A stretch of DNA of 64,000 bases, from contig NZ_KB894404.1 of assembly GCF_000374445.1 (NCBI RefSeq), forward strand, positions 62,001-126,000. Reading direction: 5' to 3'. The notes beneath the pieces were generated by a model. It worked only from the letters and a program-made list of their open reading frames with translations. It ran no database searches and was not told the origin of the DNA. Every line of letters starts with the position of its first letter. Positions within the stretch are counted from its first letter, which is position 1. Below, in pieces: positions 1,623 to 63,610 of the stretch. Position numbers and translations under genes: made by a program. The stretch is from Actinokineospora enzanensis DSM 44649. Its GTDB lineage: Bacteria; Actinomycetota; Actinomycetes; Mycobacteriales; Pseudonocardiaceae.

Positions 1623-2654
1623 ATGGTAATTCTCCATGGTGTGGCGGTGACAGTCATCGCATTGCGCCAAGGCCCGGGGGTCGGCGGCGCGCGGCTGGTC
1701 GGGCTCGGCTCGTACCGGCCGCAGACAGCCGTGGGCAGCGCGGAGATCGCCGCGCGGTTCGGGCGCACCGGCGAGTGGATCCGGGAGCGCACCGGCATCG
1801 TGTCCCGGCGGTTCGCCCGCACCGAGGCCATGGAGGCAATGGCGGTGACCGCGGGTACCCGCGCGCTCACCCAGGCCGGGTACGGCCCGCGGGAGATCGA
1901 CCTGGTGATCGTCGCGACCTGCAGCGCGCAGTCCCCGGTGCCGGTGCGCGCCGCCGCGGTCGCCAAGGCGCTCGGCGCGCCGGACGCGGCCGCCTTCGAC
2001 CTCAACGCCGCCTGCGCGGGCTTCTGCTACGCGATGGCGGTGGCCGCCGACCTGGTGCGCGCGGGCTCGGCGCGCCGGGTACTGGTGGTGGGCACGGAGA
2101 AGATGACCGAGTGGGTGGACCCGGCCGACCTGGGCACCTCGATCATCTTCGGCGACGGCGCGGGCGCGGCCGTGGTGGAGGCGTCCGACGAGCCGGGCAT
2201 CGGCCCGATCGTCTGGGGCAGCGACGGCGCCGCCGAGTCCGCCGAGCTGATCGAGATCCCGGTCGGCGGCCGGATGCGCATGCAGGGCCAGTCGGTGTTC
2301 CGCTGGGCGACCACCGAGATCCACCCGATCGCCCTGCTGGCCTGCGAGCGCGCGGGCGTGCGCCCGGCCGACCTGGCCGCGATCGTGCCGCACCAGGCCA
2401 ACCTGCGGATCATCGACGCGCTCGCGCGCAAGATCGACGCGCCGAACGCGGTGGTGGCCCAGGACGTGGTGGAGTCCGGCAACACCTCGGCCGCCTCGAT
2501 CCCGATGGCGCTGGACCGGCTGCTCGCCGAGGGGCTGGCCGAGCCGGGCGGGCTGGCGCTGCTGATCGGCTTCGGCGCGGGCCTGACGTACGCGGCACAG
2601 GTGGTGCGCATGCCCGCACGGGTGCCCGCGCCCGCCGGTCTCGTGACGCGCTAG
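1623..2654 (+). CDS. fabH: 3-oxoacyl-ACP synthase III family protein (FabH-like)
   Basis: A thiolase-fold KAS III that would condense acyl-CoA with malonyl-ACP to start fatty acid or polyketide chains. The catalytic triad is intact: Cys131 in NAACAGF, His257 in VPHQAN and Asn287 in SGNTS. Length (343 residues) is normal. The gene stands alone, not in a fab operon, so a dedicated lipid or secondary-metabolite role is possible. The start is uncertain: the ATG at 1623 is used, but the GTG at 1647 would give a more typical N-terminus. The TAG stop lies inside the CTAG end of a long palindrome. Confidence 0.88.
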   Translation: MVILHGVAVTVIALRQGPGVGGARLVGLGSYRPQTAVGSAEIAARFGRTGEWIRERTGIVSRRFARTEAMEAMAVTAGTRALTQAGYGPREIDLVIVATCSAQSPVPVRAAAVAKALGAPDAAAFDLNAACAGFCYAMAVAADLVRAGSARRVLVVGTEKMTEWVDPADLGTSIIFGDGAGAAVVEASDEPGIGPIVWGSDGAAESAELIEIPVGGRMRMQGQSVFRWATTEIHPIALLACERAGVRPADLAAIVPHQANLRIIDALARKIDAPNAVVAQDVVESGNTSAASIPMALDRLLAEGLAEPGGLALLIGFGAGLTYAAQVVRMPARVPAPAGLVTR

Positions 2655-2818
2655 GCGCTGTCCGGCAAGTCCGGCACGCGCTATCCGCGCCCGCGCGGCC
2701 TCCGGCCGCACGGGCGGAAAACCCAAGTACAACCCGGTACGTGCGGCTTCCCGCCCGCACGCCCAGAGACCACGCGGATCACGGATCCCGCGCACCAGAC
2801 TTACCGGACAGCGCCCAG
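2651..2818. repeat. long palindromic element, copy 1 (168 bp)
   Basis: Two roughly 80-bp arms form an imperfect inverted repeat. Left end CTAGGCGCTGTCCGG (2651-2665) pairs with CCGGACAGCGCCCAG (2804-2818). The centre is GTAC (2727-2730), six bases, GTAC (2737-2740). It fills the gap between the convergent fabH and beta-glucosidase genes, and its first CTAG contains the fabH stop codon. Length and centre match the elements at 58.6 and 63.4 kb, though the arm sequence has diverged. It could act as a bidirectional terminator; origin as a small mobile palindrome is inference. Confidence 0.75.
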
Positions 2819-2835
2819 CGGCGCGGCTCGGAACG

Positions 2836-4314
2836 TCAGCCGGGTATCAGCGGGTCCACGGCCTGGCCCGCGGTGTCGCTGTAGACGTACTCGGTCGCGA
2901 CGGTGCCGTCCGGTGCGTCGCGGGACACGGTCGACGTCCTGGGGCGCACCACCAGCGCCCCGGGATCGCGGCGGACGACCTCCCGGTACCAGTGGTAGGA
3001 GTCCTTGGGGGTGCGGGTCTGCGTCGCGTAGTCCACATGGACCAGCCCGAAGCGTTCGCGGTACCCGGCCGCCCACTCGAAGTTGTCCGTCGCCGACCAG
3101 GCGAAGTAGCCGCGCACGTCCGCGCCGTCGGCGACCGCCGTGGCCAGCGCGCGCAGGTGCGAGTCGTGGTAGTCGATCCGCGCCTGGTCGGGCACGCGGC
3201 CGTCGACCGGGTCCGGGTCGTGGTAGGAGCATCCGCTCTCGGTGATGTAGAGCGGCGGCAGGTCCTTGCCGTAGCGGTCGGTGAACATCGCCACCGTCTC
3301 GCGCAGACCGTCGGGCACCACCGGCCAGTCGAAGTCGGTGCGCGGGTAGCCGGTGATCGGTCGCGGCTCGAACGGCAGCCCCGGCGGCAGCGCGGCGCCG
3401 TCGACGGTCCCGGTCCGGTCGCCGGTGCGCGCGCCGACCAACGTCGGCATGTAGTAGTTGATGCCGAAGAAGTCCAGCGGCTCGGAGATCACGGCCAGGT
3501 CCTCGGCCACCGGGCCGGGCATCGCCGCCGCCAGCTCGGGCACCGGGTAGCGCCCGCGCAGCACGGGATCGGCGAACAGCCAGTTCACCAGGACGTCGTA
3601 GGTCTGGGCCGCCTCGACGTCCGCCGCGGAATCCGACGCCGCCCACACCGGGGCGTGGTTGCTCGCGGTCCCGATGCCGGTGCACCCCGCCGCGCGCAAC
3701 GCCCGCACGGCCAGCCCGTGCCCGAGCAGCAGGTGGTGCGCGATCGGCAGCGCCCCCAACCCGAACGCCTTGCCCGGCGCGTGCATGCCCATCGCGTAGC
3801 CGAACATGGTGACCACCACGGGCTCGTTCACCGGCATCCAGAGCCGCACCCGGTCGCCGAGCCGCTCACCCACGACCGCCGCGTAGTCGGCGAACCGGTA
3901 CGCGGTGTCCCGGGACAGCCAGCCACCCACGTCCTCGACCGACTGCGGTGTGTCCCAGTGGAACAGCGTCACCGCGGGCGCGATGCCCGCCGCACACAGT
4001 TCGTCCACCAACCGGTCGTAGAAGTCCATTCCCGCCGGGTTGACCACCCTGCCCGGCAGCACCCGCGGCCACGACACCGAGAACCGGTAGGCACCCACGC
4101 CCAGGTCGCGCAGCAGCGCGACGTCCTCCCGGTAGCGGTGGTAGTGGTCCGTCGCGACGAGACCCGTGTGGCCGTCCCGGATCCGGCCCGGTTCGGCGCA
4201 GAACGTGTCCCACACCGACGGCGCCTTACCGTCCTCGTCGGCCGCGCCCTCCACCTGGTAGGCGGCGGACGCGACGCCCCATAAGAAATCGTCCGGTAAT
4301 CCGGGGAACGGCAT
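2836..4314 (-). CDS. GH1 family beta-glucosidase
   Basis: A retaining glycoside hydrolase of family GH1 (492 residues, normal length) that would cleave beta-glucosides, probably cellobiose, in the cytoplasm since no signal peptide is present. The acid/base is Glu164 in VNEP and the nucleophile Glu359 in ITESG. The N-terminal FLWGVASAAYQVEG is the family signature. It starts 37 bp after the stop of the upstream MFS sugar transporter on the same strand, so import and hydrolysis are probably co-transcribed. The start at 4314 is fixed by the family N-terminus MPFPGLPDDFLWG. Confidence 0.95.
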   Translation of the reverse strand: MPFPGLPDDFLWGVASAAYQVEGAADEDGKAPSVWDTFCAEPGRIRDGHTGLVATDHYHRYREDVALLRDLGVGAYRFSVSWPRVLPGRVVNPAGMDFYDRLVDELCAAGIAPAVTLFHWDTPQSVEDVGGWLSRDTAYRFADYAAVVGERLGDRVRLWMPVNEPVVVTMFGYAMGMHAPGKAFGLGALPIAHHLLLGHGLAVRALRAAGCTGIGTASNHAPVWAASDSAADVEAAQTYDVLVNWLFADPVLRGRYPVPELAAAMPGPVAEDLAVISEPLDFFGINYYMPTLVGARTGDRTGTVDGAALPPGLPFEPRPITGYPRTDFDWPVVPDGLRETVAMFTDRYGKDLPPLYITESGCSYHDPDPVDGRVPDQARIDYHDSHLRALATAVADGADVRGYFAWSATDNFEWAAGYRERFGLVHVDYATQTRTPKDSYHWYREVVRRDPGALVVRPRTSTVSRDAPDGTVATEYVYSDTAGQAVDPLIPG

Positions 4315-10674: not shown

Positions 10675-10800
10675 TCGACCAAGATGGTAGAAGGAAGCCG
10701 GTGGGACTCCGGCACGGCCGCGCCACTGTGACGGGAGGCCACCCCGGGTGAACGCCCGGGAGGGACTTCCGGAGTCAGACCCTTCGCCGTCGCACGCTCC
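10675..10800 (+). promoter_or_regulatory. cobalamin riboswitch upstream of cbtBA
   Basis: The conserved B12-box core is present: GAAGCCGGTG, GACTCCGGC and GCGCCACTGTGACGG at about 10693-10735. A GC hairpin (ACCCCGGGTGAACGCCCGGG) and the GGAGTCAGAC segment at 10771-10780 follow. It ends about 40 bp before the AGGAGG of cbtB, so it probably controls translation or early transcription of the cobalt transporter in response to adenosylcobalamin. Confidence 0.93.
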
Positions 10801-13344: not shown

Positions 13345-13875
13345 GACCGAGTTGCCCACAACCCCGTTGAAGGATCTCCACGCGCACACCACCACGTGAC
13401 GAGCCCACGCTCCACGGCTCCTGTGGACAACTCCGCGCACGACCTCGCCCACCAGCGGTAACGTAGAAATCCGGGGATCCCCCACGAGCTATCCACAATC
13501 CGCCGAACAGTCCACAGATGCACGGCGACGCTTGACGGGCCTGCACTCCGCAGCTCCTGTGGACAACTTCGCGCACGATGTCATCTACCTGCGGTAACGT
13601 AGAGATCCGGGGATCCCCCGTGGGTTATCCACAATGCCTGGAGCGGTCCACAGGTACGCAGCGACGCTTGACGAGTCCGGCGCTCCAGCTCCTGTGGATG
13701 GCTCCGCGCGCCACCGCGCCTACCGGCGGTAATGTAGAAATCCGGGGATCCCCGGCGAGTTGTCCACAACCCCCGGAATCGCTCCACAGATCATCTCCGC
13801 CCCTCTTGACAACGTCTCGAATTCGGTAGGCTGTATCCGGGGCAGGCCCCCTGGGATGGGCGGGGGCTGTCCTCG
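13345..13875 (+). repeat. DnaA-box repeat array, three full units plus promoter-like end
   Basis: The 575-bp gap before the cobB 3' end holds three tandem units of 135-136 bp, anchored by GCGGTAA at 13455, 13591 and 13726. Each has a reverse box (TGTGGACAA at 13422 and 13559; TGTGGATGG at 13693), the core TAGAAATCCGGGGATCCCC, and paired forward boxes 19-20 bp apart (13489/13508, 13625/13644, 13760/13780). GCTTGAC follows in the first two units. The last unit instead ends in TTGACA (13806-13811), 15 bp, TAGGCT (13827-13832) and a GC hairpin (about 13840-13873). A degenerate unit starts near 13345. No coding capacity is evident. Confidence 0.75.
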
Positions 13876-18714: not shown

Positions 18715-18860
18715 CGGAGTGTCCTGGCTCCCGGATCCGCACGCCGGTCCCGGCCTTCCCGGGCCGAACCGCCCCGGTGGCACACAGGGGGACTGGCGCT
18801 CCCCGGTCACAGTGGCGGGACCGCACCGGACTCGCACCGGTTTCCTCGCACACCCTGCTG
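18715..18860 (-). promoter_or_regulatory. cobalamin riboswitch upstream of the chelatase fusion
   Basis: Read on the minus strand: GAAACCGGTGCGAGTCCGG and GCGGTCCCGCCACTGTGAC (about 18855-18819), and after a variable arm GGGAGCCAGGAC (about 18730-18719). This is the full B12-box consensus. The leader ends about 50 bp before the chelatase GTG. Confidence 0.93.
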
Positions 18861-31017: not shown

Positions 31018-31165
31018 AGCGGGACACAGCGATGGCAGCGGAGGAAGCCGGTGTGAGTCCGGCGCGGTCCCGCCACTGTCACCGGGGAGCGGACCCCAAC
31101 GCACGGCCACCGCGCGAGCGGGAAGGCCGGGGCGAGCACCGATCCGGGAGCCAGGACACTCCGGC
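31018..31165 (+). promoter_or_regulatory. cobalamin riboswitch upstream of cobN
   Basis: The B12 consensus is clear: GGAAGCCGGTGTGAGTCCGG, then GCGGTCCCGCCACTGTCAC at about 31041-31082, and GGGAGCCAGGACACT at 31147-31161. It ends about 35 bp before the AGGAGG of cobN. Confidence 0.95.
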
Positions 31166-36906: not shown

Positions 36907-37390
36907 GGGGGGTTCCGGGGTTGTCCACAGGGCTGCGGAATCGTCCACAGGCCACGGTCGGGGGATATTGACAGCGTTCGTGATCGTCTAGGTTGCCTTT
37001 CTGGTGGGCCGCCCCCTGGTGGGGCGGGGCCTGCTTTGTGGTGCTGTACGGGTGAAGTGACAGGTCGTTCGCGCCGTTGGTATTCAGCACGTCTGAGGCG
37101 ATTGGGTGCCGGGCTTCCAGCCTATGGTCGAGGACTCGTCTACATCCACGTGCCTGACTTCGTCCCTGACTCACGGCCGTGTGTCTCACGGGGTTGTCCA
37201 CAGCCAAGATCAATTCGACTCGGGACTGTCGGTCTCTGTCGGTAGAATGAGAAATCGGGGGTTCCCGGGCGGTTGTCCACAACCCCGCGAATCCATCCAC
37301 AGCTCACGACTGAGGGATATTGACAGCGAAGATCATCGCCTAGGGTTCCACGTATTGGGCGGGTTGCCCCCGGGTGGGAGGGGGCGTGTC
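36905..37390 (+). repeat. DnaA-box repeat elements, two tandem copies with promoter-like ends and hairpins
   Basis: Copy one: GGGGGTTCC, DnaA box TTGTCCACA (36921-36929), second box TCGTCCACA (36941-36949), TTGACA (36968-36973), 15 bp, TAGGTT (36989-36994), hairpin CCGCCCC-loop-GGGGCGG (37009-37027). Copy two: boxes at 37194 and 37273 (79 bp apart), CCATCCACA at 37293, TTGACA (37320-37325), 15 bp, TAGGGT (37341-37346), hairpin GCCCCC...GGGGGC (37366-37385). The remaining bases to 37602 hold no gene. A further TAGGTT lies at 37582-37587 just before fbiC. Confidence 0.75.
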
Positions 37391-58586: not shown

Positions 58587-58754
58587 CTAGTGGTGCGACC
58601 CAGAACGTCGACCATGTCTCGACCCGCCCACGACGTGCCTGACGGCACCGCCGGAAACGACCAAGTACATCCAGTACGAGGCCGTTCCGGCGGCACCGCC
58701 GGCCACGCCGTGGACCCGCCGATACACGGCCGACGTTCTGGGTCGCACCACTAG
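58587..58754. repeat. long palindromic element, copy 2 (168 bp)
   Basis: The outer 24 bp of each arm are perfectly complementary; the ends are CTAGTGGTGCGACCCAG (from 58587) and its complement ending CTAG at 58754. Imperfect pairing continues to the centre GTAC-ATCCA-GTAC (58665-58677). The right-hand CTAG (58751-58754) contains the stop codon of the adjacent histidine kinase gene. The rest of the 335-bp gap (58416-58586) shows no gene. The sequence is closely similar to copy 3 at 63.4 kb. Confidence 0.85.
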
Positions 58755-60226
58755 CTTTGTGCCGACTTTCGGGCGGCGGGCAGGCGGACGGTGAATACCG
58801 TCATTCCGGGTTCGCTGGCGACGTCCACCTCGCCGTCGTGGGCCTGGACCACGGCCGCGACGATGGCCAACCCGAGACCGGTGCTGCCCTGTGCCCTCGA
58901 CCGCGAGGAATCGCCGCGGGCGAAGCGCTCGAATACCTCGGGCAGCAGTTCGGTCGGGATACCCGGGCCGTCATCGGCGACCGAGAGTTCGACCTGATCG
59001 CCGAGTGAACGCAATGCGACGGTGATGGTGGTGCCCGGCGGTGTGTGTGTCCGACCATTGGCCAGGAGATTGGCCAGCACCTGGTGGAGCCGGGCCTGAT
59101 CCCCGATGGCGTGCAATGGCTCCTCGGGCAGGTCGAGCCGCCAGTTGTGGTCCGGGCCCGCCACCTTGGTGTCGCCGACGGTGTCGAGCACCAGCCGGGA
59201 CAGGTCGACGGTCTCGTACAGCAACGGCCTGCCCGAGTCGAGGCGGGCCAGCAGCAGGAGGTCCTCCACCAGCGTCGTCATCCGCTTCGCCTCGGACTCC
59301 ACCCTGGACAGCGCGTGCGCGACGTCCGGCGGCACCTCCGAGTCGCGGCGGCGGGCCAGCTCCGCGTAGCCGCGGATCGCGGCCAGCGGGGTGCGCAGCT
59401 CGTGGCTGGCGTCGGCGACGAACTGACGCACCCGGGTCTCGCTCGCGTGCCGGGCGGCCAGGGCGTTGCCGATGTGGCCGAGCATCCGGTTCAGCGCGGA
59501 ACCCACCTGGCCGACTTCGGTCCGCGGGTCGGTGTCGGTCTGCGGCACGCGCACGGACAGCGCCACCTCGCCCTTGTCGAGCGGGAGTTCCGCGACGCGA
59601 CGGGCGGTGGCGGCCATCCGGTCCAGCGGGCGCAGGGTGCGGCGGACGACCAGCACGCCGGTGACGCCCGCGATCGTGAGGCCGATCAGCGAGACGCCGC
59701 CGAGGACCAGACCGGTGGTCCACAGGGTGTTGTCGACCGTCTCCATGGACATGCCCGCGATCACGGTCGTGCCGTACCTGGTCCTGGAGGCCATCAGCCG
59801 GTAGGTGCCCATCTCGCCCAGGTCCCGCGACCGGCCGCCCGCGTTCACCGGCAGACCGAGGAAGGTCGGGTACAGCGCGGTGTCGAGGTTCTCCCGGGCG
59901 CCGGTGGAGGTCAGGCGCTGGGCCGAGGTGACATCGCTGCCGTCGATGGTCACGATGACCGTGCCCGCGTTCTGGAAGGGGCGGTCGTCGCCATGCCCCT
60001 GCTGCTGGTCCACCGGGGGCGGCGGGCGGTTGGCGAACTCGGCCATGCGACCGCCCGCGTCGCTGAGCTGCCGGTCGAGCTGGTCGACCAGGAACGCGCG
60101 CAGGCCGACCACGGTCACCACGCCGATGATCACGCAGACCAGACCGAGCAGCACCAGCTGTTCGGTCATCAACCGCGCGCGCAGAGACAGCACACGCGAT
60201 TGTTTACCCCGTGGGCTTGAGGACAT
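58751..60226 (-). CDS. OmpR-system sensor histidine kinase
   Basis: A 491-residue membrane kinase: helix 1 (23-46), extracytoplasmic domain (47-168), helix 2 (170-195), HAMP, HisKA with phospho-His275 in ASHELRTPLAAIRGYAEL, then HATPase_c with NLLANGRTHTPPG, DDGPGIP and GSTGLGLAIV. It resembles mycobacterial TrcS/TcrY-type kinases. Its ATG overlaps the response-regulator stop by 23 bp. The TAG stop is part of the CTAG end of a palindromic element. The signal is unknown; the neighbouring envelope glycosyltransferases suggest cell-wall sensing. Confidence 0.93.
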   Translation of the reverse strand: MSSSPRGKQSRVLSLRARLMTEQLVLLGLVCVIIGVVTVVGLRAFLVDQLDRQLSDAGGRMAEFANRPPPPVDQQQGHGDDRPFQNAGTVIVTIDGSDVTSAQRLTSTGARENLDTALYPTFLGLPVNAGGRSRDLGEMGTYRLMASRTRYGTTVIAGMSMETVDNTLWTTGLVLGGVSLIGLTIAGVTGVLVVRRTLRPLDRMAATARRVAELPLDKGEVALSVRVPQTDTDPRTEVGQVGSALNRMLGHIGNALAARHASETRVRQFVADASHELRTPLAAIRGYAELARRRDSEVPPDVAHALSRVESEAKRMTTLVEDLLLLARLDSGRPLLYETVDLSRLVLDTVGDTKVAGPDHNWRLDLPEEPLHAIGDQARLHQVLANLLANGRTHTPPGTTITVALRSLGDQVELSVADDGPGIPTELLPEVFERFARGDSSRSRAQGSTGLGLAIVAAVVQAHDGEVDVASEPGMTVFTVRLPAARKSAQS

Positions 60227-63091: not shown

Positions 63092-63448
63092 ATGGTCACA
63101 ACCGCCGCGCCCACTCTCCTCCCCACCGCCCCCGTCCGCGAGCCCGTCCCGGCGGATCCGGTGAGACTGGGCGTGCGGCTGCGCGCGGCGATCGGACGGG
63201 CGGACGACCTGGTCGGGGCCGCCGCGGTCGCCGAGCTGCGGGCCGGGCTGGCGTGGACGGCGGCGGCGGGGGAGACGTGTCGGATCACTCGTCCGGTGGA
63301 CGCGGTGCGTCGGGCCATCACCGCGTTGCGGGCGGGCGACGAGGCCGCCGCGCGGGTCGCGCTCGACCACGCCGTCGCCGCGTTGCGGGAGGCGCCCGCG
63401 TTGCCGTTGCCCCGTCCGGCGACCTCGTTCGAGCGCCGTTCGATCTAG
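63092..63448 (+). CDS. small helical protein of unknown family, paralogue 1
   Basis: A 118-residue protein I do not recognise. After a Pro-rich N-terminus (1-30) it is helical and Ala/Arg-rich: VRLGVRLRAAIGRADDLVGAAAVAELRAGLAWTAAAGETCR, then DAVRRAITALRAGDEAAARVALDHAVAALRE. The second part resembles the protein encoded at 63.7 kb (A-TAA-G-TC, A----L-AG-D--AR-AL-), so the two are tandem paralogues. The stop TAG is part of the CTAG end of palindromic element copy 3. GAGG lies about 9 bp before the ATG. Confidence 0.6.
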   Translation: MVTTAAPTLLPTAPVREPVPADPVRLGVRLRAAIGRADDLVGAAAVAELRAGLAWTAAAGETCRITRPVDAVRRAITALRAGDEAAARVALDHAVAALREAPALPLPRPATSFERRSI

Positions 63449-63610
63449 CGCCGCGACCCAGAACGTCGACCACGTCTCGACCTGCCCACGCCGAGCCTGG
63501 CGGCGTTGCCGAAACGACCAAGTACATCCAGTACGAGGCCGTTCCGGCGCCTTGCCAGACACGACGTGGACAGGCCGATACGCGGCCGACGTCCTGGGTC
63601 GAGGCACTAG
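63445..63610. repeat. long palindromic element, copy 3 (166 bp)
   Basis: The ends are CTAGCGCCGCGACCCAG (from 63445) and CTGGGTCGAGGCACTAG (to 63610). The centre is GTAC-ATCCA-GTAC at about 63521-63533. The first CTAG contains the stop codon of the preceding gene. It shares GACCCAGAACGTCGACC and the central GACCAAGTACATCCAGTACG with copy 2. It separates two tandem paralogues. Confidence 0.85.

Follow-up and report, generated by a model that had tools for sequence, protein, structure and literature searches.

The window, i.e. the whole stretch of 64,000 nucleotides that was analysed, harbours three long palindromes (copies 1, 2, and 3), all of which are centred on GTAC-N5/6-GTAC and end in CTAG, except for one end of copy 1 that reads CCAG (Table 1). 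The first-pass annotation had described three CTAG-bounded, GTAC-centred palindromes of near-equal length, and their positions turned out to be exact. It had also located them next to gene 3' ends, and each copy indeed adjoins the end of a gene, its own terminal CTAG containing the TAG stop codon of the neighbour. Folded as RNA, the + strands with few flanking bases reach predicted energies of -107, -110, and -98 kcal/mol for copies 1, 2, and 3 (z = -8.0, -10.8, and -8.5), and none of 200 shuffled sequences folded as well. In the following, type A denotes elements of the copy 2/3 type and type B those of the copy 1 type. Copies 2 and 3 are homologous, as had been proposed, with 85% identity. 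Copy 1 had been taken to have the same architecture with diverged arms; relatives from other genomes that bridge the sequences show that it, too, is homologous over the whole length.

Table 1. Palindromic elements of the window and their landmarks (positions counted from the first nucleotide of the window).
Feature	Position	Strand	Sequence	Remarks
Copy 1, family B	2651..2818		CTAG..CCAG	full-length palindrome, 168 bp; G.U-pairing (RNA-reading) strand is -
Copy 1, centre	2727..2740		GTAC-AACCCG-GTAC	apical stem and loop
Copy 1, left end	2651..2654	+	CTAG	provides the TAG stop of the upstream gene 1641-2654 (ACP synthase III type)
Decayed fourth element, A-type	2815..2955	-		begins at the terminal CCAG of copy 1; aligned part 2817-2955
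Copy 2, family A	58587..58754		CTAG..CTAG	168 bp; RNA (G.U) strand is -
Copy 2, centre	58665..58677		GTAC-ATCCA-GTAC	
Copy 2, right end	58751..58754	-	CTAG	provides the TAG stop of the histidine kinase gene 58751-60193 (-)
Copy 3, family A (older, diverged)	63445..63610		CTAG..CTAG	166 bp; 85% identical to copy 2; RNA (G.U) strand is -
Copy 3, centre	63522..63534		GTAC-ATCCA-GTAC	
Copy 3, left end	63445..63448	+	CTAG	provides the TAG stop of the predicted gene 63092-63448 (without Pfam match)

A fourth, decayed A-type element abuts copy 1, the terminal CCAG being common to both. Its alignment score is 101, and 1845 other 180-nt pieces of the window score at most 43. Roughly 39 codons at the 3' end of a glycosyl hydrolase family 1 gene (2836-4314, - strand), together with its stop codon, lie within the decayed element; in the 492-residue product the Pfam domain extends to residue 449. 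As far as can be read from the alignment, a decayed mobile palindrome is now the protein tail of this gene.

The window also contains a second, different repeat family (69-161, 13384-13790, and 36919-37349) made up of TTGTCCACA/TTATCCACA boxes and GGTAGAAT..GGGG..CCCC units, which occurs three times in tandem at about 136 nt and has similar sequence near loci L072, L143, and L147. Two cobalamin riboswitches (RF00174) lie at 18718-18846 (- strand) and 31042-31160 (+ strand), and positions 10692-10735 resemble part of one of them, with no Rfam match at the gathering threshold.

The first-pass annotation counted three copies and suggested a covariance model and a search of the genome. Genome searches with single copies as queries yielded many more: the source genome, an Actinokineospora, has about 36-38 A loci and about 20 B loci, and the decayed element of the window had been missed. 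Using copy 2 as query we found family A at at least 40 places on the query's own strand (the best 40 of 172 candidates were scored), 31 of them full-length at 95-100% identity. Two contig-end pieces duplicate other loci (C62 that of C10, C73 that of C26), and three one-sided pieces may pair, giving the estimate of 36-38 loci. For family B, the search with copy 1 returned, in addition to short fragments, 21 places at which the element is full or partial; L033/L035, L037/L039, L041/L042, and L038/L049 each represent a single locus at two contig ends, and the number of about 20 loci includes short forms. Copies are present at many contig ends of the assembly. Most full copies are 95-99% identical, and their flanks are unrelated: among 53 rows flanks are shared only within the pairs L033/L035, L037/L039, and L041/L042. 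Deletion derivatives of 31-92 bp, mostly differing in length, occur as well, none of them seen as a large family. The shortest one seen in the source genome is a 31-bp remnant at a predicted gene's stop codon that consists of two B tips only (L061, G000:C19, 1215-1245). Two 71-bp B derivatives (L062 and L063) have the same deletion junction, so that short forms might move, too. One A copy (L012, G000:C35) is flanked, outside the TA, by a roughly 16-bp direct repeat (agtgggcgcatggtca) that is absent from the other copies with flanks examined.

The elements extend far beyond the source genome. An exact-pattern scan for the centre motif (one genome per species) gave 33 stretches, 18 in Actinokineospora, six in Actinocrispum, four in Kitasatospora, two in Actinosynnema, and one each in Streptacidiphilus, Actinophytocola, and Kibdelosporangium. 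These relatives bridge A and B, so that whole elements can be aligned, and this comparison places both families as branches within a single superfamily of approximately 165-170 bp. The superfamily is also found in Actinocrispum, Actinosynnema, Kibdelosporangium, Kitasatospora, Streptacidiphilus, and on Streptomyces plasmids. In an alignment of 26 elements that were picked by hand for readable ends (alignment A2; 163-173 bp as cut) the mean pairwise identity is highest in the centre (0.75), falling to 0.65-0.68 for the core arms and to 0.47-0.49 for the outer ones. Using a covariance model built from the core we obtained matches in 23 of 394 genomes of the class (E <= 1e-4, strict filters), namely the source genome, one congener, 19 genomes of one genus in family f33, and two in family f31. 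A member from f33 matched 23 plasmid records (Streptomyces 21, Embleya 2), indicating that f33 is probably Streptomyces; copy 2 matched three plasmid records (Embleya, Kitasatospora, and Streptomyces), and the same single f33 query had no match among phages. The f33 genome G469 contains 57 + 55 tip matches, and at least 39 of the matches listed form pairs that span 168-169 bp.

The ends of the elements are nearly always CTAG, with TA at both ends. In the few deviating copies the two sides vary independently (XTA|G and C|TAY): L041 has GTAG on the left and CTAA on the right, L020 has TTAG and CTAG, and a B element in G014 sits inside TTAA (TTAG..CTAA). An element in G011 has A as its own first and T as its own last base and nevertheless lies within C-TA[A...T]TA-G. 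Together with the diverged empty sites described below, these copies fit insertion at TA, mostly in a preferred CTAG, with duplication of the TA. As the TA is duplicated, a TAG stop codon hit by an insertion would be regenerated.

To search for empty sites we joined the flanks of six insertions without the element and compared them with 15 congeners. At four of the six joined sites (L034, L041, L043, and L009; the other two are L046 and L036), for which 15 relative loci could be aligned, the neighbours are contiguous with no full element in between. Several junctions are blurred by divergence, and that of L041 in G015 reads GCGGCCGCCTA|AGCC. At the G013 site (L342) that matches the L034 insertion, where the source genome has a full B element, the same gene end carries a palindrome of 24 bp (CTAGG..CCTAG) that looks like a B element after deletion; either this site was struck twice or the remnant stems from an old shared insertion.

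The terminal CTAG coincides with the TAG stop codon of a neighbour in 31 of 50 distinct copies of the source genome (A 18/33, B 13/17; the 50 exclude fragments at contig ends as well as L045 and L048-L051, which are incomplete), as judged by a purpose-made codon-usage gene finder trained on 16 long open reading frames of the window. The gene finder placed no copy inside a gene. Among the loci examined elsewhere the same placement is seen in 6/7 copies in G469, 4/8 in G006, and 2/5 in G007. Of 40 background CTAG sites outside the elements 12 are stop codons, 19 are intergenic, and 9 lie within genes. We do not propose active targeting of stop codons, as 31/50 versus 12/31 non-genic background CTAGs is a weak excess (p 0.066). 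The location at gene 3' ends thus results mainly from the CTAG/TA target combined with counter-selection or loss of genic insertions. The element ends themselves supply new CTAG targets and nesting occurs accordingly, as in the case of copy 1 on the decayed A element and of an IS5-family element located exactly at the CTAG that ends an A element (L137, G000:C41, 1285-2480).

The insertion sequences (ISs) of the source genome are likewise CTAG-ended, among them the IS5-family element of about 1 kb that directly adjoins an A element. The protein of an IS of about 1 kb in the source genome belongs to the IS982 family (NF033520, 164.9 bits at a cut-off of 130, E 2.4e-48). One end of this IS is CTAGATGATTGATTCC, and the closest candidate for its other end is CTAGATGGGTAAGTCC. 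In the congener G007 we identified a further family, T, with five full elements of 165-166 bp (TA to TA) and one 67-bp derivative, all of which carry exact CTAGATGATTGATTCC at both ends; the IS in question sits in the source genome, and in G007 itself the pattern search revealed no full IS. When a T element is compared with an A element of G007, 113 of 121 core positions are identical (93%), the aligned tips sharing only 11/23 and 13/23. A common core with different tips means that the tips were exchanged around it, i.e. by this alignment the tips are exchangeable. A second connection to ISs comes from G353, which has two copies of a 1335-bp IS with an open reading frame matching the IS5 family (NF033580, 123.8 bits, cut-off 110), and the ends of this IS are within three mismatches of the tip pattern of the G469 elements.

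The T family thus has terminal repeats in common with an autonomous IS (IS982-type), whereas no IS was found for the A and B tips. We detected no autonomous partner of A or B among the PF13359 and PF01609 transposase families of the source genome, and no match of their tips among the IS ends inspected there. Partial A/B tip matches in relatives are all located within deletion derivatives and not in an autonomous element. Tip pairs 250-3500 bp apart at the loci examined are represented solely by two neighbouring A copies, and a tip search in three f33 genomes produced pairs of 53-181 bp and unpaired ends, with no pair of IS size.

Many recent copies with unrelated flanks, TA ends, empty sites, and a tip equal to the end of an IS identify the elements as miniature inverted-repeat transposable elements (MITEs), in agreement with one of the suggestions of the first-pass annotation. 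Its two other suggestions, REP-like elements and terminators, could not be upheld: the elements are too long and inserted at TA/CTAG, no T tract follows within 30 nt in those with flanks examined, and their orientation relative to genes is balanced (see below). The idea that they are bidirectional terminators or host binding sites of the REP kind draws on the strong hairpins adjoining gene ends and on the 24-bp B-like palindrome of G013, which leaves one of the four aligned sites occupied in two species. This explanation is extremely unlikely given that the elements are mobile, that their sites mostly differ between species, that one tip is an IS end, and that no T tract was seen after the hairpin.

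The first-pass annotation further proposed that pairing is conserved rather than primary sequence, and three lines of evidence support this strongly. First, of 472 chimeras combining arms of less than 60% identity, 467 form a hairpin weaker than that of either parent, the paired fraction being 0.28-0.32 versus 0.74 in the natives, and chimeras of the core only (<70% identity) are weaker than both parents in 432/454. Second, the core arms covary. In core alignment A3 (38 pairs) 91.3% of the cells are paired versus 75.4% after shuffling and 35-45% in slid structures; 23 of the 38 pairs exhibit two-sided changes, and the covariation score is 0.432 versus 0.173, with none of 500 shuffles reaching the observed value on any of five measures, where the structure was derived from the same sequences, favouring the result to some extent, and kinship of the sequences inflates such scores. 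RNAalifold, applied to A2 in the other strand with no imposed structure, returned 22 pairs, 10 of them two-sided, but none in the outer arms, for which misalignment of the tips is the probable cause. Copies in G007 moreover differ by coupled changes (CTAACTATC/GATAGTTAG, CTGACTATC/GATAGTCAG, and CTGACTGTC/GACAGTCAG), and locus L220 represents a G.U intermediate on the predicted strand.

Third, the mismatches are strand-specific. On the strand reading CAAGTAC..GTACGAG the stems of the 26 elements contain 282 A.C versus 26 G.T mismatches, A.C being the larger class in every element; the other non-Watson-Crick positions comprise 53 A.G, 48 C.T, 61 C.C, 25 A.A, 6 G.G, and 4 T.T. In 48 copies of the source genome the ratio is 556 A.C to 17 G.T with A.C larger in 47, the exception being L064, a deletion derivative without centre that is probably not in the common orientation. 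A.C on this strand corresponds to G.U pairs on the other one, and the G.U strand is predicted to fold at a mean of -139.7 versus -103.5 kcal/mol and has the lower energy in 26/26 elements. Some G-U positions recur between families (columns 21/73 and 28/64). Another 26 loci found with the covariance model display 296 G.T versus 45 A.C on the model strand; as this strand was chosen by a model score that favours G-U, the count is partly circular and supporting only. The model-hit alignment A4, in which six of 32 rows are antisense hits, did not enter the counts.

A mutational origin of this asymmetry would leave a strand bias among recent changes. The singletons of 31 A and 13 B copies comprise, on the canonical strand, 10 C>T, 6 G>A, 5 T>C, and 3 A>G, and the shared minority states of the same copies 4 C>T, 5 G>A, 3 T>C, and 7 A>G. 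In this small sample recent changes have no strand bias, and mutation thus does not explain the A.C/G.T asymmetry. The same numbers bear on the possibility that pairing is not selected at all, with young bursts of MITEs whose masters stay palindromic through gene conversion or hairpin repair, and with mismatches arising from strand-biased C>T damage. Intrastrand repair can homogenise palindromes, but the near-balanced recent C>T and G>A changes do not match the ratio of 282:26 among old mismatches and some G-U positions are found in more than one family, making this scenario very unlikely. Co-evolving arms together with a one-strand mismatch bias that has no mutational counterpart imply that pairing is selected on one strand.

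We infer that the selected molecule is most simply the RNA of the G-U strand, which is predicted to form a near-perfect stem of about -140 kcal/mol. The alternative that the hairpin is selected as a single-stranded DNA transposition intermediate, as in IS200/IS605 or integron attC sites, would likewise be specific for one strand and blind to gene orientation. In DNA hairpins G-T is the least bad mismatch and less harmful than A-C, so pairing on one strand could also be an effect of single-stranded DNA. About 11 G-T per approximately 80 pairs is, however, high for a DNA hairpin and usual for RNA, and one tip type matches a DDE-type IS; the high G-U share and this tip favour RNA. In addition, no significant bias of orientation by chromosome arm was observed in G469 (p 0.09-0.43 for five assumed origins, with 26 copies assigned by hand). 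Overall, we regard a DNA intermediate as the selected form as rather improbable.

If RNA is selected, it might act within the transcripts of neighbouring genes. According to this explanation the elements are ordinary MITEs, and the hairpin is kept because, at the 3' end of read-through transcripts, it makes an insertion useful or at least harmless, an idea put forward for YPAL, ERIC, and NEMIS. The start of 31/50 source-genome copies in the stop codon of a gene is in line with it, and hairpin formation within the transcripts of neighbouring genes has been published for small elements of this size (PMC2229807). Nevertheless, the well-pairing strand is not co-transcribed with the adjoining gene above chance (19 co-transcribed versus 13 not in the source genome, p 0.38), and inclusion of three further genomes results in 23:22. 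As this orientation is random, a function in host mRNA has no support; besides, copies within a family would be too young to have gathered compensatory changes themselves. We therefore consider this explanation unlikely.

Altogether, the elements are likely to constitute a MITE superfamily with exchangeable tips and a hairpin that is kept paired on one strand and selected during the amplification of the element itself. In this model a DDE transposase of the IS5/IS982 kind, supplied by an insertion sequence, would recognise tips of about 15-25 bp and insert the element at TA, mostly inside CTAG, duplicating the TA. The central 100 bp or so is more conserved and remains palindromic while tips are exchanged. 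Pairing co-evolves on one strand, with G-U accepted and A-C mostly not, suggesting RNA of this strand as the selected molecule. With less certainty, the hairpin would be selected in the element's own amplification rather than as part of neighbouring mRNAs: the copies are young and near-identical, compensation is found between masters, and the orientation relative to genes is random, all of which suggests selection while masters amplify. The hairpin RNA could help master copies to spread, e.g. by acting with the transposase or by protecting its own transcript.

The body of a MITE is usually regarded as neutral sequence separating the two sites that the transposase binds. In the present elements, by contrast, a body of near-fixed length stays paired on one strand across large sequence divergence and several bacterial families while the ends read by the transposase are exchanged. 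Should spreading depend on the hairpin RNA, DDE-type elements would have an RNA component; if it does not, selection for RNA-like pairing in a parasite still requires explanation. A more far-reaching version, which we put forward tentatively and deem possible rather than probable, is a mobile cassette with an RNA hairpin of about 80 bp that is required for amplification and swaps its DNA tips to match the locally active DDE transposase (IS5-like or IS982-like), thereby surviving across actinobacterial families. Such an element would parasitise insertion sequences, depending on RNA and switching between transposases. The host bacteria are known producers of natural products, and copies occupy many of their stop codons and contig ends.

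The first-pass annotation knew of no described family with these features, and our searches agree. Rfam returned nothing at gathering scores for copies 1-3, and permissive searches with copies 1 and 2 gave only miRNA-type and other matches far below gathering scores. Full-text literature searches, with most subscription papers outside their scope, yielded no description of such an actinobacterial element. The family of small mobile palindromes described here is thus apparently undescribed in actinobacteria.

We compared the elements with known systems by description. RUP, Correia/NEMIS, and ERIC have, to our knowledge, one tip type per family, and the original YPAL paper reportedly locates YPAL shortly after stop codons. 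Known mobile elements that are small and palindromic include YPAL, ERIC, NEMIS/Correia, and RUP (PMC2229807 and PMC2267715). YPAL/RU-2 of Yersinia is characterised there as an intergenic, mobile element of about 168 bp that forms long RNA stem-loops and is not A+T-rich (PMC2229807), and a length of 168-169 is also tabulated (PMC2267715). The elements reported here resemble YPAL/RU-2 in size, long RNA stem-loops, intergenic location, mobility, and a base composition that is not A+T-rich. PMC2229807 gives no TA at the termini and target duplications of 3-26 bp for YPAL, whereas our elements have TA/CTAG at both ends and do not belong to it; they also differ in a tip shared with a DDE-type IS, the exchangeable tips, the G-U pairing on one strand, and their occurrence in actinobacteria. 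RUP (Streptococcus pneumoniae), Correia/NEMIS (Neisseria), and ERIC (enterobacteria) are TA-ended MITEs with hairpin RNA, and RUP ends match those of IS630-Spn1 (PMC2229807). TA termini and hairpin RNA are shared with all three, and, for the T family, ends matching an IS with RUP, in contrast to which a conserved palindromic core, several tip types, and pairing over the whole length set the present elements apart.

REP/BIME/REPIN sequences, moved by RAYT, consist of 20-40 bp units (PMC3733652). They are abundant extragenic palindromes as well, but the elements of alignment A2 measure 163-173 bp instead of 20-40 bp, insert at TA, and end in CTAG rather than carrying a GTAG or CGTC tag, which excludes them from the REP/RAYT group. 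Neither do they qualify as intrinsic terminators, i.e. a hairpin followed by a T run, since the flanks examined contain no T run. With the IS5/IS982 insertion sequences of the same genera they share CTAG-bounded ends, the T tip being the end of the IS982-type IS, and they differ from them as palindromes without transposase that have a conserved core of their own. A palindromic MITE as such is thus known; the unusual part is the combination of a conserved, strand-specific hairpin with interchangeable tips.
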